From Megalonaias nervosa (lineage: Eukaryota; Mollusca; Bivalvia; Unionida; Unionidae): a stretch of DNA of 64,000 nucleotides. The DNA lies in the NCBI GenBank assembly GCA_016617855.1, contig JAECUM010004936.1, forward strand, positions 1 through 64,000, written 5' to 3'. Under the pieces are notes generated by a model. It was not told the origin of the DNA, did not search any database, and saw only the letters and a list, made by a program, of their open reading frames with translations. Each line of letters opens with the position of its first letter. Positions within the stretch are counted from its first letter, which is position 1. Made by a program: the position numbers and the translations under genes. Positions 10,561-43,440 of the stretch are shown in pieces.

Positions 10561-12011
10561 ACACATTATTTTGGGATATTGTCCATCCACCTGTCTGTCT
10601 GCACTCTCCACTCTCTACAATTACCAAACTTGAGGAAAGGAAGAACCCTATCAATTTAAAGGTCAGGGTCAGTGTGATGGAGGTGGTAATCTACAGATAT
10701 TACAAACTTATGAGAGCACGACAGGTGTAAGGTGAAATTGTTTGCATTTGCCACATGCACAGTGGAGAGAATGTTGGCAAACCTCTATGTTACTTCCATG
10801 TACTGTGGCTGAAACTTTATATATTTTACATGTGGAAATTGTACATTATATAAGCATGCAACTGACCAAAATGGCTGATACCATATGCTCAAAAAATCAG
10901 CCTGAACTAGTCCAAAGAAGTACACTAACTTTAGCAGTTATTAGGCCCCCTCCCCAATGTGTTTCCAGTTTGCTGCCATTTCTCATTGCCAACCCTAGTA
11001 CTTTTTTCCCACATGGTAAAAAAATTTTAAATCACACAAAAAAATCACATTAAATATAAATAACATTCAAAAAATATTAAACAATCTGCCTACCTTAATT
11101 TTAAATCCAGTACAATAGGAAATACACATATTTTTTCTTGGCCTTAAAAAAGGGAAAACAAATTTTGCCAGTTTAGGATATACTAGCTTCTGAAAGTGCA
11201 ATGAATGAATTACATAATATATGAAAAGTAAAAAAAATAGTTATGGGTTTGTTTTTATTACAATTTTTCTTTGAGGTCCAGGAAGTGAAAATGACCAAGC
11301 AGAGCTAGCAGTTTCTTGAGAGATGCACATCTGAAGAAAGGCCAAGCTGTATACTCTATAACCCAAATTGCATCCATTTATATTTACAACATTAACGAGA
11401 ATTCAAAGTTCTTTTAACAGTAACTAAAATATGAAAGGTCTTTTGTAACTATACAGGACAAGCAGTAGAGAAAATATGGGAAATTCATTTATTGTGAAAA
11501 GCTAACCCTAAATCTAACTACAAAATAAGAATGCCACCAGAAAGAAGGAAATCTCAAGTTCTCCATCTACAGTTAGGAAACTTTGTGAATGGTTGCATGT
11601 AGGGTAAGGAGGATCTCAGTTGATTAAAAAGTGAAAAATGTCAGAGGTCAAGGTCCCTTTGAGTGAAAGGGGAAAAGGTTTCCAACATAAAGCTTGAATT
11701 TTCCACCATCTACATTTACCAAACTCTGTAGATGGTTTACACACTGGGTAAGGAAGAAGAAGACTGATTTCAGGGTCAATGGTGAAAGTGACCATGGTTG
11801 AAAGAATAAATATGGTTTCAGAAAAGTTACATTATTTCTACATACATTCCTGGAGAAAACTGTGGAGAGCTTGAGATAAAGAACAAACCTTCTGCTTTTG
11901 GGGTCAAAAAGTAAAAGGTCCAGATCGGTGAAAGATAAAGAAAGATTTCTATGCAATAACATTAATTCTACAGCACAAACTTGGACCAAATTATTGGTAA
12001 TAGCTTTTACT
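10561..12011. other. Stretch with no recognisable gene
   Basis: The region has a repetitive lexicon (ggtcaaggtcc, gaaagtg) resembling diverged tandem or duplicated sequence. Open frames are short and have no family resemblance. Confidence 0.45.
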
Positions 12012-19027: not shown

Positions 19028-20382
19028 TTGTTATGATTGGGGTTGGGTGCTCCCAATATTTTATTTAAACTATTACAGGAGAACCACCCAGGCTCGATTT
19101 TGCTGGAAGTTAAATTTAGTGAAAGATAGATGATAAACTCCGAGCCCCCAGTCAGCAATGCCGACGGTTAGATGTGAATAACAATTTAATAACAATTCAA
19201 TAATCAAACGACTCAAATTTCCAATTACACTCCTTCCGCTCGACCCTTTAATAAGCCTATTACATCACTTGATTATCAGTGTGAGATTGATTTCCACCTG
19301 TCCTTGTATTTCTACTCATCTGGTGTATCCTTTCTCTTTCTTATTTCTCCCACTTCCTTCTCCCCTTCCTCCTCGACTTTTCTCCAAATTCCTTCTCCTC
19401 CTCCTCCTCGACTTTCTCTAGACTCTTTCTCCTCCCCCACTTTCTCTACCACGACTATTCTTCTGTCGACTTCGACTGTCTCAGCTACAGCCGCAATTCC
19501 GTCTCCAATTCTTGAAGACTCAGGACTCAATCGAACCCGAAGTTCTGTGTCCGCTTAAAAGCTTCCTGTGAAAACACAAGGACAGTACAATCTTTTCCTT
19601 AGCCCTCTCATCTCACACCACACACAGCCTATCATCAGATAACGGCTATTAAATTTCTTCGGTCACGCATTCGTTCACATCGAGATACCCATACGTTCTT
19701 GCATTGTAAACAAACGTCATAATAAAAAGCACGGTATCAATCGCTTCTCATAAATACATCAATAAATTACGTCACATCAATACATATTCCTAATCCCGTT
19801 ATACTAAACAATATCACAATAATCAGACGCATTCCTTTACCTTACAACTCATACAAAGTAAGCAAATATTCAAATATCCATGCTCGGATATATTGTTATG
19901 CATATTTAATTTAATTGTTTTGGATTTTTTTTTTTTTTTTTTGTTAGTTTTACATTTTTTAATTCCATTACATGTCATTGTAATGTAACTGTAACGTTTT
20001 CTTGCTCCAAATAAGGGCAACGTTTTCATACAAAAATAAAAGGTTTGTCCCAGCCTAGCACTTGACCAAAAGAAAATTAAGTCAGGATAAGTAAAATATA
20101 GTAGATTTATTTTGTACAAACATTCGAATCACACAGTACAGACAATCATATTATATACGTATATATATATATGGTTTACCCATCTATGGGTATTGACATA
20201 TACCCAATACTGGAGAAATGTACAAGTTTACAATGACTTTAAATTACTCCACCATTTCTACAATACAAAACATTTCATAATTGTGGCTTAGTAATTCCCT
20301 TTACTTCTTTGCACATACATACATTAATACATATAGTATATTTTCTTCGGGACTGTTACCCATGATTGGAGAGAATATTAAT
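19028..20382. other. Left part of DNA inserted into the Gypsy RT; no gene recognised
   Basis: The Gypsy RT coding similarity ends abruptly at 19020-19027, where sequence beginning tgttatgattggggttgg starts (an LTR-like TGTTA start). Nothing in this 1.35 kb encodes a recognisable protein. There is a T-run at 19927-19945, a pyrimidine-rich TCC stretch at 19340-19440 and an AT run at 20160. I infer it belongs to a second mobile element or host segment that later received the Polinton. Confidence 0.5.
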
Positions 20383-20663
20383 AGTATAGTGGGGTAGTTT
20401 ACGGACAATGGGAAAATACATTACAGACCCCCCTCCGGGGTAGTTTACGGACACGATTTATACGGACAAAATATCACCCTGGGTACGTTTACGGACAATG
20501 GGAATTTTGTATAGCGACTAGCACACCATGGGTCAATATGACGTCACGGTACTGGACACTTGCAACAATGTAGCAAGTACCGTGACGTCATGCCACCTGT
20601 TTCATTTCTATACATAGTGTGATGCATTCGCGTTCGTGTCAGTGGATAGTATAATATGTTTTA
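20383..20663 (+). repeat. Polinton left terminal inverted repeat
   Basis: 281 bp, matching the reverse complement of 40775-41055 except at five positions, all in the inner 110 bp. The outer 170 bp are identical. It contains a gtttacggac motif three times and an internal palindrome at 20538-20591. Confidence 0.97.
20538..20591. promoter_or_regulatory. Palindrome with two CRE/ATF sites inside the TIR
   Basis: Two 16-base arms (atgacgtcacggtact and its reverse complement) are separated by 22 bases. Each arm contains the perfect CREB/ATF site TGACGTCA. The same structure sits in the right TIR (about 40847-40900). The arms survive without mismatch in both TIRs. It could bind host bZIP factors or act as an origin or terminal hairpin. 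The function is inferred. Confidence 0.75.
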
Positions 20664-20667
20664 AAAT

Positions 20668-20717
20668 TTTTTAGGCAAGAAAGAATAAATCTTTTTGAGG
20701 CACTGGTGTGGCCCTGG
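20668..20717 (-). terminator. Remnant histone-type 3' end of left terminal gene
   Basis: On the minus strand, the 3' arm of a stem-loop (CAGGGCC) and a downstream stretch ending in aaaaagatttattctttc match 40589-40636 on the opposite end of the element. The 5' arm (GGCCC) is missing: the gene's TAG at about 20727 lies only some 10 nt upstream, so a small deletion probably removed the arm. Confidence 0.6.
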
Positions 20718-20726
20718 TTTTTGCTT

Positions 20727-21313
20727 CTATTGTCTCCAGTTCTTCCACCAGCTTCTTAATTTTCCAATGATTCCTTTCTTCGTTATTTTCTTTTCTTCGT
20801 CTGAAATCCAGTCTGGATGTCCCATGTCTCTAAATTTTTTCTGTATTTTCATCCAGTTTATGTTCAGTGTTTCAAAGTTCTCTTTCTTTTTTGGTTTTCC
20901 TTCTCCTTTCTCTCTTTTGTCCAGGTGTCTTTGATTTTCTTTACCTCTTCTTTCATTACTTTCTTCATCTTGTCTTCTCCTTTTATTAATTGTTGTAAAC
21001 CCTACTGGACAAAAGACCACTCTGACCAATTAAATGTATCTTGCAAGAATCTCCTCACTTGGATGACAAGATTAAGGGCTTCCTTCAATGTCCCCACTCT
21101 TACATACTTAGGCTTGATGAATTCTCTTATTTTTTTCACCTCCTCTTCTATCATTCCTGCCACCTGATCCCTGGCTACTATCAGGCTAGTGACTTGACTG
21201 GTCACAAAGTCTTGCCTGCCTGGATAGCTCCATTCTTTTTCAATCCTTTCCACCACGTAGGCTGCATCCATCATCCAAAAATAACTGTGTCTTAATTCAT
21301 TGAACAAATTCAT
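20727..21313 (-). pseudogene. Polinton accessory gene A, basic coiled-coil protein, broken
   Basis: The start chosen is ATG at 21313 (MNLFNELRHSYF). The product is not recognised. The first part is mixed helical; the second half is extremely Lys/Glu-rich (KKVMKEEVKKIKDTW) and probably coiled-coil, ending WWKNWRQ. An in-frame TAG at 21002-21004 and a later frame change in the purine-rich part (about 20880-20960) break it. Upstream lies the conserved promoter module shared with genes B and C (TATATAA near 21377). Downstream is a damaged histone-type 3' element. It is the outermost gene on the left of the Polinton. Confidence 0.6.
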
Positions 21314-21334: not shown

Positions 21335-21415
21335 AGTCAACGCGGGTAGTCAGACTGACCAGCGTTCCGCGTTATATACGTCAAGCACGGACGTGAACGA
21401 AAACATCCCCTACAC
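21335..21415 (-). promoter_or_regulatory. Promoter module of gene A
   Basis: On the minus strand, in order: GGGGATGTTT, TCACGTCCGTGCTT, TATATAACGCG and GTCAGTCTGACTACCC. The same ordered blocks precede genes B and C at matching spacing. The TATA box is followed about 20 nt later by CAGTCTG, a plausible initiator. Confidence 0.8.
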
Positions 21416-21429
21416 TCACTTCACATATT

Positions 21430-21998
21430 ATATACTATCCTCACCAACGAGCAAGAATGCATAAAACATACCATATTTACTATCCTCACCAACGAATGAG
21501 AAAGCATAAAACACACCATATATACTATCCACACCAACGTACGAGAATGCATAAACATACGATATTTACTATCCTCACAAACGAATGAGAAAGCATAAAA
21601 CACACATCTATTTACTATCCACACCCACGAACGAGAATGCATAAAACACACACATATATACTATCCACACCAACGAATGCGAAAGCATAAAACATACACA
21701 CTATACTATCCACACAAACGGACGCGAATGCATAAAACACACACATTATACTATCCACACTAACGGACAAGAATGCATAAAACACACCATACCTACTATC
21801 CACACCAAGGAACGCGAATGCATAAAACATACCCACTATACTATCCACACCAACGGAAGCGAATGCATAAAACACACCATACCTACTATCCACACCAACG
21901 AACGCGAAAGCATAAAACACACACATATACTATCCACACCAACGAACACAAATGCATAAACAAAAACACATATACTATCCACACCAACCAACGCGAAT

Positions 21999-22000
<2 letters not shown>
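21430..22000. repeat. 44-bp tandem array derived from the TIR inner edge
   Basis: Thirteen imperfect units of about 44 bp containing ctatccacaccaacg and gcgaatgcataaaac. The same words, in the same order and orientation, occur at the inner edge of the right TIR (ctatccactgacacgaacg, gcgaatgcat). Open frames on both strands across this array are repeat translations. Confidence 0.9.

Positions 22001-22038
<38 letters not shown>
22001..22038. repeat. (CA)n microsatellite
   Basis: About 19 CA dinucleotides directly following the 44-bp array. A second (CA)n tract lies at 22966-22996 in the equivalent position next to gene C's 3' element. Confidence 0.97.
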
Positions 22039-22104: not shown

Positions 22105-22145
22105 GTCTCTCTTTTCTAGAGATTTGGTTAGCCCTGAGAAGGGCT
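22105..22145 (-). terminator. Histone-type 3' stem-loop and HDE of gene B
   Basis: On the minus strand, AGCCCTTCTCAGGGCT (22145-22130) forms a six-pair stem with a four-base loop. It is followed by AACCA and, about a dozen bases on, GAAAAGAGAG. The known histone consensus is GGYYYUUYUHARRRCC then ACCA, with a purine-rich element pairing to U7 snRNA (AAAAGAG). The match is complete except that the outermost pair is A-U rather than G-C. It begins 32 nt after gene B's stop. Confidence 0.8.
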
Positions 22146-22177
22146 GTTTTTTTTTTTTTAACTTCAAATACACCTGA

Positions 22178-22726
22178 CTAATGGTGACATCTCCCTGGGC
22201 GACCACCACACACGCAACGTCGGCTCCAGTCCTGCTCCCAATTGATGTTTGTTCTTGGGATCGCAGAGGGAAGTTGACTGGCTTCAGATCTCCAATCTTC
22301 AGTTTCTGGGATTCTGAAGACTGCCCTCTGTCTTCTTCTGTTTTGTAGCCGGGGATGATGTTGCTGCGGCTCCCATTCTTGCCGCTGTCTCTCTAATTCC
22401 TCCAAAGCCTCCACCTCCCAGTTTTTCATCTGAGAGGTAGCGATTTTTGGTACTGGTTGTTGTTGTTGTGGCTGTGGCTCTCGTTGTGGTAGTAGTGCTT
22501 GTGGAGGTGTCCTCACCTCAGGTTTCACCTCACACAGAGGTCTCATGATGAGGTGAGGCAGGATCCCTCTTTTCGTTATCTTCTACTCTGCTTTCTTCTT
22601 GTTTTCCTTTTCTTCCTCAAGTCTGGCACTTTCTGGAACGGCATCCATGGCTAGCTCATCCAAAATGCGCCTGGCATACTCCAGGTGCATTTGAAGTTCA
22701 AGCAATTTAGCAATTCTATTGCTCAT
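22178..22726 (-). pseudogene. Polinton accessory gene B, Gln/Arg-rich protein, one nonsense codon
   Basis: ATG at 22726 (MSNRIAKLLELQ) opens a frame that runs to TAG at 22178. An in-frame TAG at 22583-22585 interrupts it after 47 codons. The first part is a Leu-rich helix (LLELQMHLEYARRIL) followed by a Lys/Glu stretch. The second half is Pro/Gln/Arg-rich (REPQPQQQQPVP) and contains a Trp-rich tail. No family is recognised. It has the shared promoter module upstream (TATATAA near 22782) and a histone-type 3' stem-loop 32 nt downstream. Confidence 0.6.
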
Positions 22727-22751: not shown

Positions 22752-22835
22752 TGGGTAGCCAGACTGACGATCGCGTCGCATTATATACTTGAAGCACGGA
22801 CGTGAAGGTAAACATCCCCTAACACCAAAACTTAC
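22752..22835 (-). promoter_or_regulatory. Promoter module of gene B
   Basis: On the minus strand: TAGGGGATGTTT, TTCACGTCCGTGCTT, TATATAATGCG, then GTCAGTCTGGCTACCC. It is nearly identical to the module before gene A over about 80 bases. Confidence 0.85.
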
Positions 22836-23019: not shown

Positions 23020-23064
23020 TTAGTATGTCTTTTCTAGAGTATTGGGGTAGAACTGAAAAGGGCT
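23020..23064 (-). terminator. Histone-type 3' stem-loop of gene C (damaged) and HDE
   Basis: On the minus strand, AGCCCTTTTCAGTTCT (23064-23049) is followed by ACCCCA and CTCTAGAAAAGAC. Loop, flanks, cleavage context and purine element match genes B and D, but two G's of the 3' arm read TT, which would open two pairs. It lies 35 nt after gene C's stop. Confidence 0.65.
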
Positions 23065-23098: not shown

Positions 23099-23470
23099 TT
23101 ACTGTCTAAGATTGCGTCCCCTTCTGGCAGCAAGCTTTCCTATACGATACGGTCTGCTTCTGCGGAAGGAGAAGGAGAACTCTTTGGTGTCCACTCGACA
23201 GTCCACAAAACCTCTGTCTGGTTCTTGCTGCTGTTGTTGTTGTTGTTGTTGTTGTTGCTGTTCTCTCTGCTTCTGAAGTCTGTACTTCTCTGTCCATTCT
23301 TCTTGTTCTTTCTTGATTTCCTCTCTGAAGACCTCTTCTATCAGGTCTTGGGGTATGACTAACATCCTGACATTCTCTATCTCTTCAGACTTAGGTATCA
23401 GGTTTAGCCTGACACGATGTAAATTGACATAACCTTTGTTCAGCTTGGCTAGTCTGGAAGGCATCTTCAT
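23099..23470 (-). CDS. Polinton accessory gene C, polyglutamine protein
   Basis: Intact frame from ATG 23470 (MKMPSRLAKLNKG) to 23099, about 123 residues. A non-ATG extension upstream reaches the TATA box and is unlikely to be translated. The centre is a charged helix (IPQDLIEEVFREEIKKEQ) running into twelve glutamines, encoded by mixed CAA/CAG. The tail is basic (RSRPYRIGKLAARRGRN). The function is not recognised. The promoter module and the damaged histone-type 3' stem-loop place it in the same family of transcription units as A and B. Confidence 0.6.
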   Translation of the reverse strand: MKMPSRLAKLNKGYVNLHRVRLNLIPKSEEIENVRMLVIPQDLIEEVFREEIKKEQEEWTEKYRLQKQREQQQQQQQQQQQQEPDRGFVDCRVDTKEFSFSFRRSRPYRIGKLAARRGRNLRQ

Positions 23471-23489: not shown

Positions 23490-23565
23490 GGATGACCAGA
23501 CTGGAGACCAACCCGCTTTATATGGTTCAAACGCGGACACGATAGAAAACATCCCTACTCGGTTT
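23490..23565 (-). promoter_or_regulatory. Promoter module of gene C
   Basis: On the minus strand: GTAGGGATGTTT, GTGTCCGCGTTT, CATATAAAGCG, then CCAGTCTGGTCATCC. This is a more diverged copy of the module before genes A and B, with block order and spacing kept. Confidence 0.75.
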
Positions 23566-23742: not shown

Positions 23743-24300
23743 TTATTTTTGACAAGGTTGACAACGTTGTGAAATCATGTGAGATTTCCACTGATGGAAG
23801 TCATGAGGCCATTGATGTACACTACGTTTCCTAGCTAAAGACAAAAGATAGCCATAATGGTCACAAAACCATCGATCTACTTTCTCATCGTTTCTAGAAG
23901 AGTTACGATCAAAATAAGTCACTAAATGTTCTAAAGGATATCCAAGACTGCGATTATGAAGAAAATACACACAATATTGTCCACACACCATGAAATCTGT
24001 GCCTTGTAATTTCACATTATTGTATCGTGTCGTCTGGGCATTTCTTCTCATAAAGTCAATGATGTCGTCTTCCAAAGGGGGTAATCCATACGAATCAAAA
24101 TATTCCACACAATCCTCTTGAGGGAAGTAGACGGCAACCCAGTGAGTTCCTGGGAGATGACTGTCGTCCGTGTTGATGACATAAGCTTGATGGTCTTGAG
24201 GTTTGCGATGAGGTAGTTCATCTTTAGCGCACACGACAGGATTCCAAGAAGCAGTATACGAACTATTGTTCAAAAGGTAATAAAGTTCCCAGGTATCCAT
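23743..24300 (-). CDS. PRO: Adenain-like cysteine protease
   Basis: 185 residues from ATG 24300, full length for the Polinton PRO family (relatives of adenovirus maturation protease and Ulp1-type peptidases). The start MDTWELYYLL is the family's usual opening. The expected catalytic His is in GTHWVAVYFP, the acidic residue in EYFDSYGLPP, and the nucleophile Cys in VCGQYCVYFL, preceded by the conserved Gln. The role would be cleavage of capsid and core proteins during virion maturation. No breaks. A minus-strand AATAAA lies about 45 nt past the stop (near 23694), so it appears to use ordinary polyadenylation, unlike genes A-E. Confidence 0.93.
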   Translation of the reverse strand: MDTWELYYLLNNSSYTASWNPVVCAKDELPHRKPQDHQAYVINTDDSHLPGTHWVAVYFPQEDCVEYFDSYGLPPLEDDIIDFMRRNAQTTRYNNVKLQGTDFMVCGQYCVYFLHNRSLGYPLEHLVTYFDRNSSRNDEKVDRWFCDHYGYLLSLARKRSVHQWPHDFHQWKSHMISQRCQPCQK

Positions 24301-24328
24301 TATTTTGTTTTGTTGTTTGTTTGTTTTT

Positions 24329-24835
24329 TCACAGGAAATGATAAGTCATCAATTCAATTCTGACATTTTGTTTGAAACGCTCTGTCAAGTAACCGTTTCT
24401 TCGCCTTGTCTCCGCACTCTGGGCTAAGAGAGATTCGATGCGATAGATCTCTAGAGTAGACAATGGTGGGCAGGAATGATCACGCAAGCCTTTATACCAC
24501 TCATGCAACACTGCTTCTTCCGAGGTGAGACTCCAAGCGTCGTCCAGATACTCGTTCAATTTTTCTTCTTGACTCATCATCATACATTTGTCGTGTTGAA
24601 TTTTACTGGGATGATCGTTTTGACATCCATAACAATCTTTCTTACTCAATTCCGTAATTTAATTCGCCAGGTGTTTGGCAAAACACGACACTAAATGTTG
24701 TTCTTGTTCTGGCCATATGGACTTGACTACTACCTCGTCCTCTTTCTCTTGGTCTTCGGGTTCTCTTTTCACGCTATCCTCCCATTCCATTTCCAAAGAT
24801 TCTCTACCGTTCAATGAGGGATAAGTGTCTTCCAT
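24329..24835 (-). pseudogene. Polinton conserved protein between PRO and MCP, one nonsense codon
   Basis: ATG at 24835 (MEDTYPSLNGRESLEM) lies 6 nt after the MCP stop. The frame is open to 24329 except for TAA at 24659-24661, after 58 codons. The N-terminal part is acidic. The C-terminal part has a Cys/His pattern (CYGCQNDHPSKIQHDKC) that could bind a metal, then a helical region ending ELMTYHFL. Similar Cys-x2-Cys...DHPS proteins occur beside capsid genes in other Polintons as I recall. The function is unknown. Confidence 0.65.
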
Positions 24836-24840
24836 TGTTT

Positions 24841-26160
24841 CTAATAGTCTAGAATGACTTCTCTCAAACTGTTGATTTCTATGGTATTATCGAATTCGGC
24901 ATACAAGATGACGTTGACCGTCTCGGTGAGAGCTTCTGGAAACTGAAGTTCCACACGCAGTTGACCGGATTTTATAGGGTGGAAATGTCCCTCATCGCTG
25001 CCTTGGTCTGGAGTGAAATCAAAGGCCCACAAAGTGTAACCTCCTACATAATCTTCGTACGAAATACCGTGACTGGTGTTGGTTCCTAGTTGCCCCGTAG
25101 CTTCGTACAGGGACAAGTACGATCTCAAGTAATTTTTCTGGGCAAAGTTAGGTTCGAAGGGTCTGGTACACAAAGTCTTGCCATCGCGACTGACTTCGAT
25201 CTTGGACACTTTGTAGTGCTTAAACTGGAAAGGATTTTGATCGTGGGCTCCGTTGAGGGCTGCGTTGCTGACGATACCAACAATTAAACGTTTGTGTAAC
25301 TGTCCTTGGAACAGATGATCTTCGATCTTGGATCGGAGTCCAGCAGCAATGGTGAATGTTTTCACTTCTACACGTCGTATCGGATACTTGGTGGTCGATC
25401 TGCTCAATGTTTGACTGATGTCGTTTCCAGCTTTAGGTAACACTTCTACGCGACGCACGTAAAGTCGGGCTTCTTGGATAATGGTTTTGTACTCGTTGGC
25501 ATGAGCCATCAAATGGAAAGCGACACTGCTGCGATAGAGTCTCAGGCGAATACCCACTTCGTTCAGCAAATACTTTTCTTGCAGCCACATGTCCAAATGC
25601 AAACGATCCATCAGTTCTAAATTACGACCTTGCAGGGTTTTCTTTCGACGGTCGTTAAAGCCCACATTGTGAGGATCGTTATCGGCTGTCAGGGCTGTGT
25701 CGTTAAACTTGTTATCACCTGCGGTGTCAGGTTTCCAAACTACGCAAGCATCCACATGAGTGTTCTTGGCCTCTTTTCCGTACGTCAAGAGATTTTCCAG
25801 GTACGCTCGGTAAGGGTAAGTATCCATGCTACTGCTGACCAGTTTGTTATTCAAGTACAAATCCACTTCGCTGAACAAGGAATGCATGGAATTGTTGACT
25901 GGAGCTACTCTAACATCGTCTCCCGGATTGGTGTTGTCTGTTTTGATCACTTTGTGTTTCAGATACAAGTAACTGCTATTCAGATCGATGTAATCTTCGG
26001 GTTGTCCTTTGATTTCAAACTCGATGGGAGCTGAATCCGTCAAAGAGGAGACGGGATGAAATTCGACCCATTGGGATACTTGCATTGTCATCACGTTGGG
26101 CGGCATGGCAAACAGATCCAGTTCCGACTTGGAACAAGAGCAAGACTCTTGGTGCATCAT
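24841..26160 (-). CDS. MCP: Polinton major capsid protein (double jelly-roll)
   Basis: 439 residues from ATG 26160; the frame extends seven codons further without an ATG. The family signature is clear: CSCSKSELDLF near the start, QWVEFHPVSSL, DYIDLNSSYLYLKHKV, NSMHSLFSEVDLYLN and TYPYRAYLENLL in the first jelly roll. The second includes KIEVSRDGKTL, YLSLYEATGQLG, DYVGGYTLWAFDFTPDQ and the ending VNVILYAEFDNTIEI. It forms the hexon-like shell of the predicted virion. The length is normal and there are no breaks in 440 codons, in contrast to most neighbours. It is often annotated as F54H12.2-like in animal genomes. Confidence 0.96.
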   Translation of the reverse strand: MMHQESCSCSKSELDLFAMPPNVMTMQVSQWVEFHPVSSLTDSAPIEFEIKGQPEDYIDLNSSYLYLKHKVIKTDNTNPGDDVRVAPVNNSMHSLFSEVDLYLNNKLVSSSMDTYPYRAYLENLLTYGKEAKNTHVDACVVWKPDTAGDNKFNDTALTADNDPHNVGFNDRRKKTLQGRNLELMDRLHLDMWLQEKYLLNEVGIRLRLYRSSVAFHLMAHANEYKTIIQEARLYVRRVEVLPKAGNDISQTLSRSTTKYPIRRVEVKTFTIAAGLRSKIEDHLFQGQLHKRLIVGIVSNAALNGAHDQNPFQFKHYKVSKIEVSRDGKTLCTRPFEPNFAQKNYLRSYLSLYEATGQLGTNTSHGISYEDYVGGYTLWAFDFTPDQGSDEGHFHPIKSGQLRVELQFPEALTETVNVILYAEFDNTIEINSLREVILDY

Positions 26161-27940: not shown

Positions 27941-29053
27941 TCACTTCTTTGTATAGTCAATGAGTTGCGAAGCGTAGATCCAAGAGTCAAAACTGGGAGG
28001 ATATCCTTTCCAACGTACTTTGACTTCTTTGACACGTCGTTTTCCCACTTTTCGGGTTCTTCGATCGAGAATGCTTTCGATCTCGTACACGTCGTCTTCT
28101 TTTTTGGTCACACGTTGTAACTCGGGCAAGTAAAACGTTCATTTTAACACTTCCCCGTTCATGTCTTCCAATTTATAGACGGGAGGAAGACGGCCACGCA
28201 CACGTTCGGTGACACGAAACAATTCGGTGGTCCAATTGGGTAAGTAACCTTTGTCGAAAGTGCGTTTGGTTTTGCCAATGCGCACCAAATCTCCTGCTGC
28301 CAACACTACACCTTTCTTGGGGATAGTCACTGTCGGGGACGTACCAAACAGGCGCTCGAAGACGGTCACTTCGTTGTCGGGAGTCACTTCTTGGGGGGTA
28401 CGTCCGATGCTCCGATGGTAAGATTGGTTGTACGATTGGACGAGGTGTGGCAAGACGTCGAAGTACTTGAGAGTGTGTTGATGCGTAAAATATTTCCACA
28501 TGCGTTCTTTCAAGGTGTGTTGAAAACGTTCCACGATGCTGGCTTTGGTTTCGGGATTCTCGGTGGTGAACAAATGTATGTCACGTATCTTCAATTCTTT
28601 TTGGAAAGCTTGGTTCAGAAATTCGGTGCATTTGTCAGTTTGCCATCGAAGAGGGTGACACCCACTTTGTTTCAACACCAGTTGAAGGGCTCGCACTAAC
28701 TCACTGCTCGATTTGGAAGTCAATGGCATGACACAAGCAAATTTGGAAAAGACGTCGATGACACAAAACAAAAATTTGAAACCACGATTGTAGGTTGTCA
28801 AATGAGAGACATCAGATAAATCGGTTTGCCATTGATGATCGATGCCTTCCACTCGGGTGCGACTTCTGCAAAATTTTCGTCGAATGGGTTTGTGTAAGGC
28901 GTACGTGGCTTGTTCTTGTAACCAGCGTTGCACTTGAGGTAAATGGATACTTTTCAGTCGAATTTTGGCAGCACGATACAATTTCTGAACTCCTCCGTAA
29001 CCTGCGGGATGGGATGGATCGTAGTAAATGCTGGCTCACACCACCTTCTCCAT
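27941..29053 (-). pseudogene. INT: Polinton retroviral-type integrase with chromodomain, two nonsense codons
   Basis: ATG 29053 to TGA 27941, one frame throughout, cut by TGA at 29036-29038 (codon 6) and TGA at 28139-28141 (between core and chromodomain). The DDE core is recognisable: first Asp in HQWQTDLSDVSH, second in LRWQTDKCTEFLN (Cys where Gly is usual), Glu in KASIVERFQHTL. A post-core SH3-like part (AAGDLVRIGKTKRTFDKGYL) precedes a chromodomain (VYEIESILDRR, VKVRWKGYPPSFDSW). The enzyme would insert the element with a 6-bp target duplication. The catalytic triad survives, but neither break leaves a full-length product. Confidence 0.93.
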
Positions 29054-31670: not shown

Positions 31671-32357
31671 TTAAATCGACGAAAGGGACGTGTACACGAC
31701 AGGCCCTCCGTCTTGGCACCAGTGGTGAAACAGATGGGTACGAAATTGCAAATAATCGGGAGTGGTGGGGTTTTAAATCCACGAGTAAATAAGCGTGTGG
31801 AGTTTGAGTGGCATCGTCGTACGCATGACTTCTACTTGCAATTTATCTCTAGGGCTTTTAAACAACACCACGTAATGAGCATTGAGACTGATGGTACGAT
31901 GGGCTTTACTTTGTTGAAACAAATTTTGGGTGATGTAAATGACACTGGCATTACGATGATGCCCTATGCACGTAAACCAGAGTTTAATTTCTTCTTCGTT
32001 TTCTCCTAACATGTCGTCAAAAATAACCAAATGAGTTTGACTAGGGTTAGACACGATCCCGCCGTCCTCGCCAGGAATGCCTTCCACAAAGACGATGGAA
32101 TCGCCTTGACTTTCTCGCAGAAGTCTGTTCGCCGGTTGCCACTCTTTGAAACACAACACGATTCGTTGAGGTGGACGATCGATCAAATGATGTTTATGTT
32201 CGATCAAACGTTTTACAAATTCGGTTTTGCCGGAATCGCTAGGTCCAGCAATGACCATGTTAAAGGGATGGCGAAGTTACAAGGCCTCCCAACTAGTCCG
32301 ATCGTCAATTACTTTGACAGTGGAGGAAGAGGGAGTAGAGACAGTAGAGGTTGCCAT
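31671..32357 (-). pseudogene. ATP: FtsK/HerA-type packaging ATPase, broken
   Basis: ATG 32357 (MATSTVSTPSSS), TAA in frame at 32277-32279, then the P-loop GPSDSGKTEFV (Walker A) and HLVIFDDML (Walker B), YITQNLFQQ and SLNAHYVVLFKSPRD. The C-terminus is scrambled. Similarity moves to a second frame (DDATQTPHAYLLVDLKP) after what looks like a short deletion near 31800, then back to the first frame (TTPDYLQFRTHLF) within about 40 nt, ending near 31671. The enzyme would pump DNA into capsids. A TATA box lies at 32407-32413, about 50 nt before the ATG. Confidence 0.9.
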
Positions 32358-34786: not shown

Positions 34787-37700
34787 CTATCGGTCTTGGG
34801 CGTTGTCCCTTTTTATATGCTGACCAATATCGGCGTGACCGTACGGCAAAGTGAAGTGATTGGGAAGCCGAACTCGCTTCTGGTGCACCATTTGATAGAC
34901 TTTTTCCAAGGGTCGGCTAACGATTTGGTGTGTGGGTAAACGTACAATCTTGTGCGGTTCGTGGGTGGTCACTTTAAAATTTCCATCCTGTCCAGACTGC
35001 AAGGCTTCTTTCAAGACGCCAAAGTTCACCAGTCGACTGGTGCGATAATTGAGAGTCAATCCTTTCACTTTGCACTCCGTGTGTACTTCTTGTGGGTCTC
35101 GGTATTCGTAGCCGTAATTTTTGGGACCGCCACTTGCAAAACTTAGAATCTTGTCGTCGGGATGCTCGTCCGTCCAGGCTCCTAAACGGTCTCCTCCGAT
35201 GACAGGGTGACGTTGACCCTAACGATCGATGTAAATGCAACTGTCCGTGTCAAAATACAGCACACGATCTCCTAACAGTTCTAAAGCTTCGTACAGTTTT
35301 AAACGAGCATGGGCTGTCACGTAAGCCGCAATGAAGACATTTCCAAATTCGTCGGCTTCTACAAAGTCCAGTTCTTCTTCGTAATTGACTAAGATCAAGT
35401 CCTCACGAGCGACGTCCACGTGTTTCATGTATTTGGTTTTGTCGTGAATCATCTGGAAGTAACGAGAAGGTTCTGTCAGATACTCCGTCTTGGGTAAACA
35501 CGGTCGTTGTGCCATTTTACCCCACAAGCAATTTAACATCACTTTGGCAAACGATCGCCTTCCTTCGTTTATCTCGATGTGGTCTAAAGTGATGCCTTCC
35601 TGCTCTCAATATTTCTCTTTGAATTTCTTTTGGTCTTCGGGAGTGTGGCACCAGGAAGGATAGCCACTGGCTTCTTGTTTCAGTTTCAAAAAAGCATTCA
35701 CATAGTCTGCGAAAATGCCTTTTTGAGTGTCGTCGCCCTTGTGGTATTTTTCTGTCTTGGGAAAGTAATAAATTTCGTACACTTCTAACAGTTGGTATCC
35801 CAAGTCCAGAGCTTTGAACGATTCCACGCTGACCCACGTTCCCGTCAAGGCGCGTTCTTCCTGAGTGTGCTGACAAGGTTGGTCTTGGTTGCACGTTTCG
35901 GCACAAGTACGGCACAAGGGAAACATCAGTTTTCCTTCGCAATGGTGAGGTAAAACTGGATGGTACAAGTACGTGGGAGGCAAGACTTTACATTTGATCA
36001 ATCCTTCGTATTGGCGAATGTTGTCCAGGTCAATGTGTTCCGTCAGCAAGTGCGGGTGCCTTGCGGGAAAATGACAGAATTTGCACACGTACAGATACAG
36101 CGAACACACGTCCAAGTATTTGATTTCTTCTCCTTTCTCCTCGTCGGATTAGTACAACAAACAGGTGTCATTCGTCCGTCTTCTGTACAAACTGTCCCGT
36201 GGGTTCAGTGGGTCCACCAGCTTGTAACTTTTCACGATACGCTTAAACTCGGGATCGGTTTTCAAACGGTGATCGTACTCGTGTTCCCACATTTCTACTA
36301 CTTGGTATCCTTGCTCTTCTAACTTCAATCGCCGCTGACAAGTGGCCTGGTACAAGTCTTCCATGGTCCGTTGTAAAAACTGATTTTTAGTGTCACGATG
36401 AGGGTAGCAGATAGGATATCCGAGAAATAAGCACCCGTTAAACTCGTACACGATCTTGGGGTTTTCTAAGTCCCAACCATCCACTGAATACCTTCCGATG
36501 GCTTTTTCGCCTTCTCCGTTGCGAGCGTGTTGGATCCATTTGTCTTCCTTGTCGCACAAATAATGTAACCAGAGTAAGGCTTTGACCGAATATTGACGTT
36601 TGACAAAGTTCGCCGTTTGAGAACTGATGACAGCTAGGGTGTTTCGGGCATGAATCATTGGCGGTACACTAAGGAATAAGCTTTGGCAATGGTGCAGGCT
36701 TCTTTCAAAGGATCGATTCCTCAGTGTTCCATGAACAGTTCTCGGAATGTTCCACAGCAATGCCGTAAAATGTCCACGTCGGAACGACAATATTTTAACA
36801 TTTCTTCCTGAAAGTCGAAAGGGTCCGAGGCGTGAGTCTGGTACCATGCGTAGAAAGCTTCTCGTTGTTCGGTAGGCATGTTGTCGGGGTCGTAGTAGTG
36901 AGCCTCGGGCAAATGAGGTAGAACGGTGTGTTGATTGGTTTCGGTATTGAAAAAGTGCGGAAAATAGCCTTTGACCATCTCTGTCATTCCAAACGTTTTA
37001 GGCATGCGACTCAAAGGCATGGCCAAGTAACTCATCGAATCTTTAAACTGCACTTGTCCCACTTGCATGGAAATGATTTTGGCTCTGTTCAAAGTCACTT
37101 TCGGACGTTCGGTACTTTGTTCCGTATAGTATCTGAAAAGAAACTGCCCATCATATCCCGAGAAATTGTGAGCCATCACCGTGGCATAGCGATGACAATC
37201 ACCGTAACGTTCGATGTCTTCTTGGCTCCACGTCTCGTCGATAGGGTCCAAGATCCATTGGGCGAAATCGGCCAGCGTGTTCGGTCCACGAAAGATTTTT
37301 TCACGTCCTCCAGGAATCTTGCTACAGTGATGGCAATGAGTAAAGATAGGCTCTTTGATGTACTTCTCACAAGCTCGATGAGTCACACAGAAATTAGGAA
37401 TGTGAATGCCAGTCTCTTGCATGCATTCGAAATCGAAAAAGATGAAATGGCCTTTCTTCTGGTCATTATCTTCTTCTTCATGTTGGGATTGGTATTTTTT
37501 AATGTAGCATTGGTGTTCCAAGTCCACGATTTGGCGACAAATGTGACATCGCTTCTTTCCTGAACAGACGTGCGCCTTGGCATTATTGGTACGTATGCCT
37601 TGTCCACAAGTAGGGCACAATCTCAGGAGCTGACAAGCACTTTTCTGCTGTGAACCTTGCGTCTTTAGATGTTGTTGGTAACAGGTAGGGCTGACAAACG

Positions 37701-38734
37701 TGTGCTGACAAGCTGGGCAATGCACTCGTTCTTGTCCTTGATCCACACAGGGTTTAGAGGCTAAACATCGCTCACATTTCGATCCACAATGCTTGTGTTG
37801 CTCTCGATTGTTATAGCTTTAGTCACATTTCTCACCGTAATAACAGGAATGCAGTGATACTGGTAATGGCATCGAAATGTTCATCGTGATGATAGACGTG
37901 AATGTATTTTCCGTCTTTAAAATTTTTGCCTCGAAACATCAGAGGTCCGCGCACTTCCTGAGAGTACACTTTCAATGTGTAGCGTGGAACCAAGACGTCT
38001 TGCAACTTTTGCATTTCAGGAATGCCACAGGGTGTGTCTTTGGAAAGACCAACTTGCTCTAACAGGAGTTTTGCTTCTCTTTGTTGTTTGGCTCGGCTAG
38101 ATTTTTTAATAGTTTGCCAGGTTCTTTTCCATTCTGCCCTTTTGTTCTTGTCGGCATACGTTCGTCCCACCACGATGGCACGGGCTAAACACAGCTTGTC
38201 TTGAGGGTTGTTAATTCGGACGAGGCTCTTTTTGGTGATGCGAAGGTTGTCCACGAATAACACTTTTTTGCCATGTCCTGTCCCTTGGGGAAGAGAAACG
38301 TGGGTCATGAACAGTGTCGCTTTTCCGTCGGTGATGTGAAACTTGTCGTTGGATTCCTGCACGTGTTGAATCTTGTCGATGATTTTGGAAGGTGTCAATT
38401 CTGCTGCGCTGCTAAACTCGATCCAAACGGTGGACTTCAAACTGTCGTGATGAATGGAAAGTCTCAAGCGATCGTCTTCTTTGGCTTCACATTGCCGTTT
38501 CAGTGTGGTTAACAAAGAATCCCACACATCAGTGATAAACCCTTCTGCTTTCTTCAACGGTACGTCGGACTTGAAATCTTTAAATTTCACCGCGTACGTG
38601 TAGGCCGTAGTTTTAAATTTTCTGGAGGAGCGTTTGTCCGTCTCTCGAATGTGGTAGTACTTTTCAGGGTTTACTGGTGGTGATGGACTTTGACTGGGTG
38701 TAGACTCTCTGGGCCTAGATTCTGGCTCACTCAT
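34787..38734 (-). pseudogene. pPolB: Protein-primed family B DNA polymerase, multiply broken
   Basis: ATG 38734 (MSEPESRPRESTPSQ). The intact N-terminal part has THVSLPQGTGHGKK, IVVGRTYADK and the Cys-rich stretch HCPACQHTF...CPTCG...CHIC. Exonuclease motifs: FIFFDFE (about 37430), HNFSGYDGQFLF (about 37170) and YCRSDVDIL (about 36780). Polymerase motifs: A near YLDVCSLY (36115), B near NCLWGKMAQR (35530) and C in YFDTDSCIY (about 35240). Then GGPKNYGY and CKVKGLTLNY. Breaks: frameshift 37834-37846; TAA 37819; TGA 36721 and 36655; frameshift near 36640; TAA 36149; TGA 35606; TAG 35219. Catalytic acidic residues remain, but no functional enzyme can be made from this copy. Confidence 0.93.
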
Positions 38735-39385: not shown

Positions 39386-39427
39386 AGTATCTCTTTTAGA
39401 AAGAAGTGAGTGACCCTGAAAAGGACC
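39386..39427 (-). terminator. Histone-type 3' stem-loop and HDE of gene D
   Basis: On the minus strand, GGTCCTTTTCAGGGTC (39427-39412) folds into a six-pair stem (two G-U wobbles) with a UUUC loop. ACTCA follows, then CTAAAAGAGAT (39397-39391 region), matching the U7-complementary AAAAGAG. It starts 31 nt after the stop at 39458 that ends gene D once its frameshift is taken into account. Confidence 0.75.
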
Positions 39428-39457
39428 GTTGGGTGTTTGTTTTTTCTTAGAACAAAC

Positions 39458-40089
39458 TTAGGAACGAGAAGCAATCAACTTTAACTCCCTTAAGTCTTTG
39501 CCACGGCCAAGGCCTACTTCTGGACTTGCTCCTGTCAATTTGAATTGGTAGAAATCACTAGGGGTGGTATCTCCGGTGTAGTAACAGGGTTAGACTGTTT
39601 GGCTCGGGAAGGTCTTTTTCTCTTGGGTCATAATAAAGAAGTCTGATACATTTGTTTCAGACTTCTTAACTCTGCCAAAATGTCCAAGAGTACCATTACC
39701 GTTTGACTTTCATTGTTCTCCTTCTCTCCTAGACTTTGTTTCTTCTCTACTGCTTCTTCCTGTCGTTTTCTTCGTGTCTCTTCTTCTCGCTGTTGCTGTT
39801 CGAGGAGAAATGCTTGTTCTGCTTCTTTCTGCTGTTGTAAAAATTTCTCCAATTCTTCTTTCTGTCTCTGTTTAAAATCGTCGACGTGTGGTAAAGAAGG
39901 AGAAGGTGACGAAGGTGCTGGTACCGGAACAAATTCTTGTGAAGAAGAGAGAAAATCTGCTAAATCCCAATTGAAATCAACCTCTTCTGGTATTAGTCCT
40001 GTGTTGACTTTGGTAACCACTGCTATTCCATCGCTTCTCGTCTCCAAAGCCGGTTCACCCCAATTCATTGTCTTCTTAGTTTCAGTCAT
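39458..40089 (-). pseudogene. Polinton accessory gene D, coiled-coil Gln/Glu-rich protein, broken
   Basis: ATG 40089 (MTETKKTMNWGEPALET) opens 153 codons. There is an acidic Trp-containing segment (EEVDFNWDLADFL), a Pro/Ser linker, a strong Gln/Glu/Lys coiled coil (LEKFLQQQKEAEQAFLLEQ) and a Leu-rich end (VLLDILAELRSLKQMY). TGA at 39628-39630 then interrupts. The frame continues with PKRKRPSRAK, a classical nuclear-localisation pattern, and after a frame change near 39545 reaches TAA 39458. A histone-type 3' end follows. It is divergent from gene E across a 232-bp spacer. Confidence 0.6.
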
Positions 40090-40321: not shown

Positions 40322-40552
40322 ATGTGGACCAACGTTGAATCGTCTACTTTCGTATCGTCGTTGTTTTTCCGTACGGACTTACCCATGTATGTGAGATCAT
40401 CATGGAGAATCGTTAGGATCACCAAGACAAGCGTTTGGAAAAGAAGGACCTATGTGGAAAGACAAGGCTGTCTGAAGCGAGTTCTGATTGGACCAGAGGT
40501 TAGACAAAGTTTGAGGAAGAGAAGAAGACCTATGCAATGCCCTCTGTGTTAA
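40322..40552 (+). CDS. Polinton accessory gene E, small basic protein
   Basis: 76 residues from ATG 40322 (MWTNVESSTFVSSLFF) to TAA 40550-40552. The N-terminal half is hydrophobic/Ser-rich; the C-terminal half is strongly basic (SSWRIVRITKTSVWKRR, RQSLRKRRRPMQCPLC) with a terminal Cys pair. There is no histone fold and no recognised family. The TATA box at 40271 and a perfect histone-type stem-loop 27 nt downstream support a real transcription unit. Confidence 0.55.
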   Translation: MWTNVESSTFVSSLFFRTDLPMYVRSSWRIVRITKTSVWKRRTYVERQGCLKRVLIGPEVRQSLRKRRRPMQCPLC

Positions 40553-40579
40553 CGGAATGGTGTTAACATAACAAACAAC

Positions 40580-40620
40580 GGCCCTTTTCAGGGCCACTCC
40601 ACTGCCTCGAAAAGATTTAT
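40580..40620 (+). terminator. Perfect histone-type 3' stem-loop and HDE of gene E
   Basis: GGCCCTTTTCAGGGCC (40580-40595) is an exact match to the histone mRNA consensus GGYYYUUYUHARRRCC. It is followed by ACTCCA and then CGAAAAGATTTA, a purine-rich block at the expected distance for U7 snRNA pairing. The stem has six G-C/U-A pairs and a UUUC loop. It lies 27 nt after gene E's stop codon. Confidence 0.88.
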
Positions 40621-40774
40621 TCTTTCTTGCCTAAAAAAAATGTTTATTCGATTGTATAACTTCTGTTTAACTCACAAAAACATTATTCTCTTAACCTAAA
40701 AATTTTTAGTCGGTTGTATAACTTGGGTAGAATAGATTGATGTTCATCAATCTATGGAAACGAACGTAAAGGCA

Positions 40775-41055
40775 TAAAACAGACTATACTATCCACTGAC
40801 ACGAACGCGAATGCATCACACTTTGTATAGAAACGAAACAGGTGGCATGACGTCACGGTACTTGCTACATTGTTGCAAGTATCCAGTACCGTGACGTCAT
40901 ATTGACCCATGGTGTGCTAGTCGCTATACAAAATTCCCATTGTCCGTAAACGTACCCAGGGTGATATTTTGTCCGTATAAATCGTGTCCGTAAACTACCC
41001 CGGAGGGGGGTCTGTAATGTATTTTCCCATTGTCCGTAAACTACCCCACTATACT
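40775..41055 (-). repeat. Polinton right terminal inverted repeat
   Basis: Partner of 20383-20663 with 276 of 281 matching bases. Its inner edge (actatccactgacacgaacg then gcgaatgcat) is the likely source of the 44-bp repeat array at 21430-22000. Confidence 0.97.
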
Positions 41056-43440
41056 ACTAATATTTTAGAAGTAAGTTATGTCTCCATACATGGAGAAATA
41101 TGATAATTTGGAATGTATTTCCAAACAGGATAAATTTATAGTTCATCTAATATTGCTGTGGGTGGTTTTAATCCAACTTCATTGATACCTGAAGCATTGC
41201 CATAGCCATGGTTTAGGCTTTTGTTTCTTTGATTACAACCGCTCAAGTCGGTGTTTCAATGTGTGAAAAGCCCCTTCATCTGTCGATGCAGACGTATTTA
41301 TACACAAATACGGTAACTAATGGAAACTCAGTCAACCAATGAAAACGCGTAACGCATCCCGCCTCGTGACGTAATTTCAATACCTCCACACGGGAGAGTG
41401 TGGTACTGAAATGACATCGCGAGTCGGAATGCAGCTGAGTTAAAAGAATTAAGCATGTTAATCAAAGAATCATGAAGGAGATACATTGATATTTAAGAAA
41501 GTATGCATCAAGGTAACTAAATATAGTAATATCGAGACATGGCATGTTTAATGTGTTTCAAAACGTACCTCAGGCGTGGCAAGCTTCCATAGCGTGACAG
41601 CCTTTGGTTTGCGTGAGGGACTCTTCCTTCTTCTCTCCATTACGACACCTCGCGAGGGAAGGATGTATTTGCGTGACTTTATTAAGAAATGAGGACATAC
41701 GACTAAAACTTTGTTACATAACTTTGTTTACTGGATTTGATATTGTCCAGAAATTCAGTTTAGTTCTGTTTGACCTGGCTGGGTTTTTTTTTATTTCACT
41801 GATAAAAACCTAATAATTGAAACACTGTATCTAGTTTATGACCTTGTTTAAGAGTCAGTGACAGTTTTGGTAAACAACATTTTTTATTTTATTTTTTTTT
41901 CTTTCTCAGAGTAAGAATCATTAAGTTAAGTCAAGGCCATACCTAGAGTACGTGATATGAAACATGTGTTTATTGTTACAAACTTCTACTTTTTAGAAGA
42001 TTGACCCTCATCCGGGAATTTGTTTTGCGTCTTAAATTATTCTATAACTGTTGTCTTGATAGAGATAAGGCAGTCGGGCTCCAAACATTTGACACGTTAA
42101 GTTATGTTGTGACCAGTTTGAGTTGAATTTTATTTTTTTAATTGAGTGATTCTTTTCCATCGAAATGCATAAGTGCTCCTACAAAATTCTCGGACACAGA
42201 CATTCACTGGAATTTATACGGAATTCAAAACTGGAATAATATTTTCTGTGATTCAACAAGAAACTGTTGACACAACAGTACTTCGCAGACTACAACAGAC
42301 GTCTTCGCCTTCCATTTTGGATTTCATCGGGATTCAAACTCGTCTTCATTCAGGACTTTTTATTACTAGGATTTCTATTTTTAATTCTTGGATTATATTT
42401 GGATTTGATTCGTAAAACCGTAAGTTTCTTTTTTCTCATTTTTCACTTGGTATTCTAGAGAAATAAATTATTTGTTTAATTTTACAAAGTTTGTTGTCTT
42501 CACTCTTTTCTATTACTTTTTGTATGAGCCTAGACTCGTAACAATATTCATACGTCCATAGTAACTAATCTTACATACTTCAACCATTCCAAATTCACAA
42601 TTCAAGCATGTGTAAATTCTAAAATAACGCATTAATAAAGGCACTAGGTTACTATGAAGTATCCTAATAGGAAATCACAAAATTAATTCTGACCACAAGC
42701 TAACAATCTACATAATTCCGCCTCGCATCTAATAATTCCCTACGTAAGCTCAAGCCCGTTTCTCAAATACGCATGTAAATGAAACACTACAAAGGTAATT
42801 CTACATACTAAACGATCCTAGTAATTAAGTATACATACTACAAATAATTACAATTATGATGTCGTAGTATTCTGCAAAAATCGTGCAAATGACTTACTGA
42901 CCTTTTCAAAGCTTTGTTTTTCCTTAGAATCTACCTCTACGTTTTGCCACCAAATTAAGAGTGCCTTCGTTCTCGGAGTACCCCTGTTGATGTGCAGTCC
43001 CTCTAGGCGAATACTAAATTTTTCCTTACGTGTTCTGAAAGTTATTGTTTGACCTGTATTGTAATCACACCCTCTATCTCAATTCCGACTGGATATCGCT
43101 GTGAACCGATCCAATCAAACTTAACGGACAATGTCCCTCTCGCTGTCTGTCAATGTGGGGACGGATGAGAACACGCCCCGCTCACCCCGCGGCTCCCCTT
43201 TGATCTTTGGTCTAAGCTTTAACACATAGGTGTGATAACTACAAGCCTTTGTCAAATGCAGCGATCTATCGCCTGTGCCGATCCAAGATTCCGGTCTCCG
43301 GCCGGTCATGTAACATTGCGCTAGAGATTAACACTAGTCCGCGGAAATCTTTAGACATCAAACACATGGCCGCGGTAATATTTCCAAAACAGTCAGATTA
43401 TAGCTTATACATGACTTTATAGCTGGGGTTTAGCAAACGT
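41056..43440. other. Right part of DNA inserted into the Gypsy RT; no gene recognised
   Basis: This lies between the Polinton end and the resumption of Gypsy coding sequence. The part at about 41330-42545 shares ordered blocks with 53020-53450 (caatgRaaacgc; gtgattcaacaa; gccgtaagttt...gRgaaataa) and ends ctcgtaaca, like a retrotransposon LTR end. 42546-43440 is unique-looking, with G+C-rich patches near 43160-43330. No protein family is recognised. Confidence 0.5.

Follow-up and report, generated by a model that had tools for sequence, protein, structure and literature searches.

Histone-type 3′-end modules at the terminal genes of a Polinton in the mussel Megalonaias nervosa

The DNA stretch analyzed here, a 64,000-nucleotide (nt) window covering positions 1 to 64,000 of contig JAECUM010004936.1 of Megalonaias nervosa, contains a Polinton in which four genes (E, D, g22, and g23) are followed by the layout of an animal histone mRNA 3′ end, while a fifth gene (g20) is followed by a half-deleted version of it. 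SLBP and the U7 snRNP recognize a stem-loop and a downstream element in animal histone pre-mRNAs, which are cleaved without being polyadenylated (PMC5636114, PMC9756948, PMC5706932). Judged from its sequence, the terminal, non-core genes of the Polinton quite probably use this replication-dependent 3′-end pathway of the host. Somewhat less firmly, we favor the wider view that this Polinton lineage makes its own gene block as histone-type, SLBP-dependent, nonpolyadenylated mRNAs, gating viral protein synthesis to the host S phase.

Downstream of gene E, the initial annotation had described a stem-loop that fits the metazoan histone consensus at all 16 positions, begins 27 nt after the stop codon, and is followed by ACTCCA and a purine block, GAAAAGA. 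These particulars were borne out. The stem-loop, GGCCCTTTTCAGGGCC, has six stem pairs and the loop TTTC and matches 16 of the 16 positions of the consensus used for scoring (GGYYYTTHTHARRRCC); 27 nt were counted between the TAA stop codon and the stem, ACTCCA follows the stem directly, and GAAAAGA comes after it. The covariance search with the Rfam model RF00032, which had been proposed as a check, yielded 37.0 bits against a gathering threshold of 34 at positions 40575 to 40621 of the positive strand, with an E value of 3.5 × 10−7 for 64 kb searched with 4,227 Rfam families, and this was the sole match at gathering threshold that any of these families produced in the window. The corresponding RNA folds into the stem-loop hairpin with −11.4 kcal/mol and a z score of −3.74, a value equaled by none of 200 shuffles. 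The annotation had also stated that the product of gene E is not a histone. In agreement with this, the open reading frame (ORF) has no Pfam match at an E value of ≤1 and therefore lacks a histone domain; the encoded protein contains 17 K and R residues versus 4 D and E residues, and its predicted structure is uninformative (pLDDT of 53). No histone was found among the weak Pfam matches of D and g20 to g23, and none of the module genes encodes an LxCxE motif.

The idea that the stem-loop is confined to gene E was rejected, since it recurs at further genes as part of a module, defined here as the stem-loop, a spacer of 14 to 15 nt, and AAAAGA, located 27 to 34 nt 3′ of a stop codon (Table 1). 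When permissive filters were used, RF00032 matched the g22 module (positions 22150 to 22106, negative strand; 23.0 bits; E value of 0.021) and the D module (positions 39432 to 39388, negative strand; 22.3 bits; E value of 0.036), both below the gathering threshold of 34 bits and each directly 3′ of a gene on its own strand. Division of these E values, which refer to 4,227 families, gives approximately 5 × 10−6 (g22) and 9 × 10−6 (D) for RF00032 alone. The damaged g23 module and the half-deleted g20 module were revealed by alignment and are not listed by RF00032 at an E value of ≤10. The distances within the modules are nearly constant: the stem begins 27 nt (E), 30 nt (D, counted from the stop that closes the conserved C terminus), 32 nt (g22), and 34 nt (g23) after the stop codon, and AAAAGA lies 14 nt past the stem in E, D, g22, and the g20 remnant and 15 nt past it in g23. 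Only the E and g22 hairpins, the latter with −9.0 kcal/mol, fold well in this decayed copy; the D stem, which includes two G-U pairs, is not by itself the preferred fold (z score of 0.19; equaled by 107 of 200 shuffles), and the folding test found no stable fold for the damaged g23 stem-loop.

Table 1. Coordinates of the Polinton, its genes, and its histone-type 3′-end modules within the window
Feature	Position	Strand	Remarks
Polinton element	about 20383–41055		inverted repeat 20374–20663/40775–41064, 98%
Gene E	40322–40552	+	76 aa, ATG to TAA, basic; TATA-like TATAAAT at 40271
Gene D	39458–40089	−	open frame 39628–40089; stop 39460–39458; frame broken in this copy
Gene g22	22178–22546	−	ORF of 122 aa; start may be further upstream
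Gene g23	23099–23470	−	ORF of 123 aa
g20, frame adjoining half-deleted module	20727–21029	−	stop-to-stop frame
Double jelly-roll major capsid protein	24841–26160	−	core, no module; 456 homologues; predicted structure vs PDB
Integrase	28139–29035	−	core, no module; rve, 37.2 bits
A32-type ATPase	31773–32276	−	core, no module; Pox_A32, 32.7 bits
Family B polymerase, separate frames	35606–37818	−	DNA_pol_B_2 in 35606–36148 and 36721–37818
E stem-loop	40580–40595	+	6 pairs, loop TTTC; RF00032 37.0 bits; fold
E purine block AAAAGA (putative U7 site)	40610–40615	+	14 nt past stem
D stem-loop	39412–39427	−	6 pairs, 2 G-U; RF00032 22.3 bits; 30 nt after stop
D purine block AAAAGA	39392–39397	−	14 nt past stem
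g22 stem-loop	22130–22145	−	6 pairs, pair 1 A-U not G-C; RF00032 23.0 bits
g22 purine block AAAAGA	22110–22115	−	14 nt past stem
g23 damaged stem-loop	23049–23064	−	4 of 6 pairs; alignment
g23 purine block AAAAGA	23028–23033	−	15 nt past stem
g20 half-deleted module	20690–20716	−	CAGGGCC, 14 nt, AAAAGA; 5′ arm missing; inverted repeat of E module

The four modules served to build a covariance model (R1), which was searched against 105 kb comprising the window and three related Polintons. It recovered its four source modules, as it must by construction, together with the g20 remnant (30.7 bits; E value of 2.6 × 10−4), and the next-best match had an E value of 0.38. Under a strict counting rule of six pairs, at least 14 of the 16 consensus positions, and AAAAGA at exactly 14 nt, three instances were present in the element, and three in the whole window, and 150 dinucleotide-shuffled versions of the element contained none; when AAAAGA was not required, the shuffles averaged 0.1 instances, with a maximum of 2. 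Near-consensus hairpins that lack the purine block do occur elsewhere in the window, and a “Histone3” call of 14.7 bits within the coding sequence of SARS-CoV-2, reported in PMC7786107, looks like a product of chance. Like the present match, that call falls within this Rfam family and concerns a virus; however, it was made in an RNA virus and within a coding sequence, whereas the Polinton is a DNA element whose signal reaches 37.0 bits, follows a stop codon, is accompanied by the purine block, and recurs at several genes. Given the RF00032 E values, the absence of strict matches from all 150 shuffles, the recurrence at four gene ends, and the other copies described below, chance resemblance is extremely improbable, and we rejected it.

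The element itself is a Polinton. Its terminal inverted repeats are 290 nt long and 98% alike, and a probable 6-bp target duplication (ATTAAT at 20377 to 20382 and ACTAAT at 41056 to 41061; five of six positions alike) accompanies the simplest placement of its ends, at 20383 and 41055, by reading of the sequence. Pfam assigns the polymerase to family B of the viral/organellar type and also identifies the core of a retroviral-type integrase and an A32-type packaging ATPase. The predicted structure of the capsid protein (pLDDT of 79.3, pTM of 0.82) matches the double jelly-roll capsids of PBCV-1, an iridovirus, Sputnik, and mavirus, and the Pfam family DJR-like_dom is matched by 1 of 26 aligned capsid homologues and not by the window protein. 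Among the 120 listed of the 456 capsid homologues, those named to species come from oysters (44 to 46% identity), and one with 51% identity is filed under a bacterial metagenome-assembled genome (MAG). The frame at 23743 to 24345 (negative strand) is a candidate adenain-type protease without a Pfam match, with relatives next to the capsid gene in two related Polintons (L001 and L003); the names PRO, penton, and pVI were given to element genes provisionally, by their position and their likeness to genes of the relatives. This copy has decayed, the polymerase and gene D each being split into several frames, and the conserved C terminus of D lies in another frame beyond the open one. The modules sit toward both ends of the element, and in the R1 search the core genes, namely, those of the polymerase, ATPase, integrase, and capsid, had none.

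Several further repeats were observed in the element. Upstream of g21/g20, g22, and g23 lie three copies of a 69-nt sequence that has a TATA-like core (21344 to 21412, 22753 to 22821, and 23490 to 23558), and these genes may therefore share a promoter type besides the 3′ end. Directly after the g22 module, 13 tandem copies of a 45-nt unit (TACTATCC...GCATAAAAC) occupy positions 21433 to 22018, with related sequence in the terminal repeats. Each terminal repeat also contains a 54-nt palindrome-like sequence (20538 to 20591 and 40847 to 40900) with TGACGTCA, which we take to be a CRE/ATF-type site, at both its ends, and a further stretch containing TGACGTCA (gtgacgtcac) is located between the divergent genes D and E. 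The flank of the element carries an ANF-receptor ORF.

Other copies of the element could be read through their proteins. Protein searches returned 2 homologues of gene E (73 to 74% identity) and 20 homologues of gene D (62 to 83% identity), most of the latter containing a PKRKRP stretch that resembles a nuclear localization signal. The E homologue P0121 and the D homologue P0136 both derive from a 1,455-nt contig with the same sources, and D and E are therefore probably neighbors in another copy. Two of the 22 homologues, P0122 (E) and P0137 (D), extend beyond the normal stop, and their extensions, ...KPFSGPLTLLENIYYVNCQ... and ...WPISGPPTSLEKRYYVNCQ..., correspond to the module translated in register; the remaining 20 end before the module and hence are uninformative on it. 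In a codon-compatibility test that specified 22 positions, 5 of them twofold, of the stem-loop and of AAAAGA at a spacing of 14 nt, P0122 and P0137 each showed one position incompatible with the module. No further place with at most one incompatible position was found in 142 proteins (57,249 residues), and 20 shuffles of every one of these proteins produced two such places in total. The departure lies in the purine block in P0122, where the first stem pair must be lost as well, and at the loop-closing base in P0137; both may reflect decay in copies that lack the stop. Read via P0122 and P0137, the module is present in two other copies.

The modules have flanking sequence in common beyond the hairpin and the purine block, and they are therefore related by duplication and do not represent independent gains. 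Such likeness would also be expected if a host histone 3′ end had been acquired a single time by an ancestor and then spread, together with adjacent sequence, by internal duplication, the modules now being functionless passengers and the transcripts ending elsewhere. The g20 remnant forms part of a 50-nt stretch that is repeated in inverted orientation at the E module, the g22 and g23 modules together with their upstream regions look like duplicates, and this copy has damaged or weak versions of three of the five modules, all of which is compatible with passive carriage. However, the coding frames of this copy have decayed as well, every module lies at its short distance from a stop and on the coding strand although no common coding sequence was seen among the genes, and the first stem pair differs, being G-C in two modules but A-U in two others. 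Moreover, the stem arms, the spacing, and most of the purine block are kept in the two other copies. We consequently consider purely passive carriage to be unlikely. Less likely still is a hairpin with another role, for example, an element-specific terminator, an RNA stability element, or a packaging signal, that came to resemble the histone type by convergence. The conserved stretch ATTCA..TTGCCAA, located 3′ of the purine block and outside the RF00032 core, would fit such a role, but the loop, the A-rich 5′ flank, the ACTCCA-like cleavage region, and the distance of the purine block all fit one calibrated model.

Two further lines of evidence were considered and not relied upon. Over the four module rows, a single pair had both of its sides altered, and 46 of 500 shuffles attained the covariation score; covariation was set aside as proof, the score not being significant and the rows too few and related. 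AATAAA is absent within 200 nt of all five module genes and also of 10 of the 11 other genes, and ATTAAA is present near gene D. Since the other genes, core genes included, mostly lack AATAAA too, its absence does not discriminate and was rejected as proof of tail-less mRNA.

If the element uses the histone pathway, host SLBP would bind the stem-loop in the Pol II transcripts of E, D, g22, and g23, and the purine block 14 to 15 nt past the stem would pair with the 5′ end of U7 snRNA. The 5′ end of vertebrate U7 holds CUCUUUUAG, which is complementary to CTAAAAGAG in the D module. Cleavage would occur a few nucleotides past the stem, after ACTCCA in the case of E, and would release short mRNAs without poly(A). 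S phase is the main period in which histone-type mRNAs accumulate and undergo translation; the E, D, g22, and g23 proteins would therefore appear during DNA replication. Such timing would be fitting for an element whose linear DNA replicates in the nucleus and, we infer, for regulators or DNA-binding proteins of such an element; that the timing benefits the element is a guess on our part. The initial annotation had proposed that the element borrowed the histone pathway, and this proposal stands in part: the architecture, its recurrence, and the two other copies speak for it, while recognition by SLBP and U7, cleavage, the tail-less mRNA, and the linkage to S phase are expected by analogy with histone biology. 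The sequence is best explained by borrowing of the pathway, which is partly supported.

Compared with the 3′ end of metazoan histone mRNAs, the Polinton modules share the 6-bp stem, the 4-nt loop, the A-rich 5′ flank, the purine block approximately 14 nt past the stem, the short 3′ UTR, and the lack of a nearby AATAAA. In contrast to histone genes, they follow genes whose products have no histone domain, they are present in several copies per mobile element, and further conserved sequence follows the purine block. With Polintons/Mavericks (Polintoviricetes; adintoviruses), the element shares the family B polymerase, integrase, A32-type ATPase, double jelly-roll capsid, and terminal inverted repeats, but it differs in having histone-type 3′ modules at terminal accessory genes, which were not found in three partly covered relatives. 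None of the open-access papers listed by the searches, a set that does not take in the adintovirus and nematode Polinton papers, gives an account of histone-type 3′ ends in a Polinton. The pathway itself is known; the papers listed do not describe a virus-like element that employs it for a group of genes other than histone genes. One paper describes histone mRNAs as the sole class of animal mRNAs without a poly(A) tail (PMC12775136). If our reading is correct, a mobile DNA virus with the whole set of signals at several genes would exemplify natural use of the pathway outside the histones and would make it possible to test whether the stem-loop, the purine block, and their spacing are enough to link expression to replication. 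It would also hint at the way in which an integrated element coordinates its expression with the cell cycle, and such viral mRNAs would escape poly(A)-selected RNA sequencing.

In the IMG/VR collection, the strict module had no match. A looser version of it matched seven contigs, none of which had six pairs, and an 18-base hairpin pattern matched three contigs, none with AAAAGA at 14 nt; in two of these three, a shared six-pair stem-loop forms part of a longer inverted repeat, and AAAAGA is far more distant than 14 nt. Integrase, capsid, and D queries found no relatives in IMG/VR, and the collection is therefore uninformative on Polintons of this kind.

The three related Polintons, whose capsids are 40 to 46% identical, lie in contigs filed under bacterial MAGs, namely, a tubeworm symbiont (L001), a mussel symbiont (L002), and Breoghania (L003), and these contigs probably represent contamination by animal host DNA. 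The core genes that they have in common with the window, not all in each, are those of the ATPase, g29, integrase, penton, pVI, capsid, and protease; L002 shows no protease gene after the capsid gene. The three contigs contained no RF00032 match at an E value of ≤1, no consensus hairpin with AAAAGA at 14 nt among the hairpins listed, no R1 match better than an E value of 0.4, and no tblastn match at an E value of ≤10−3 to D, E, g20 to g23, or the polymerase. The sequence before the capsid gene spans 9.2 kb (L001), 10.0 kb (L002), and 1.5 kb (L003), genes D and E of the window being approximately 13 kb away, and the sequence after it spans 1.3, 10.0, and 5.6 kb, respectively. The D/E end is thus covered in none of the three relatives and the g20-to-g23 end in two of them, so that the missing module is a weak negative; the view that the module is lineage specific and absent from other Polintons was set aside because the relatives cover the module-bearing ends only partly. 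As these contigs illustrate, GTDB representative genomes of marine bacteria include contigs encoding Polinton genes. In the mussel-associated Polinton L002, a candidate type-P1 twister ribozyme (positions 11734 to 11798, positive strand; 28.9 bits against a gathering threshold of 67.2; E value of 0.028) is located approximately 480 nt past the capsid gene.
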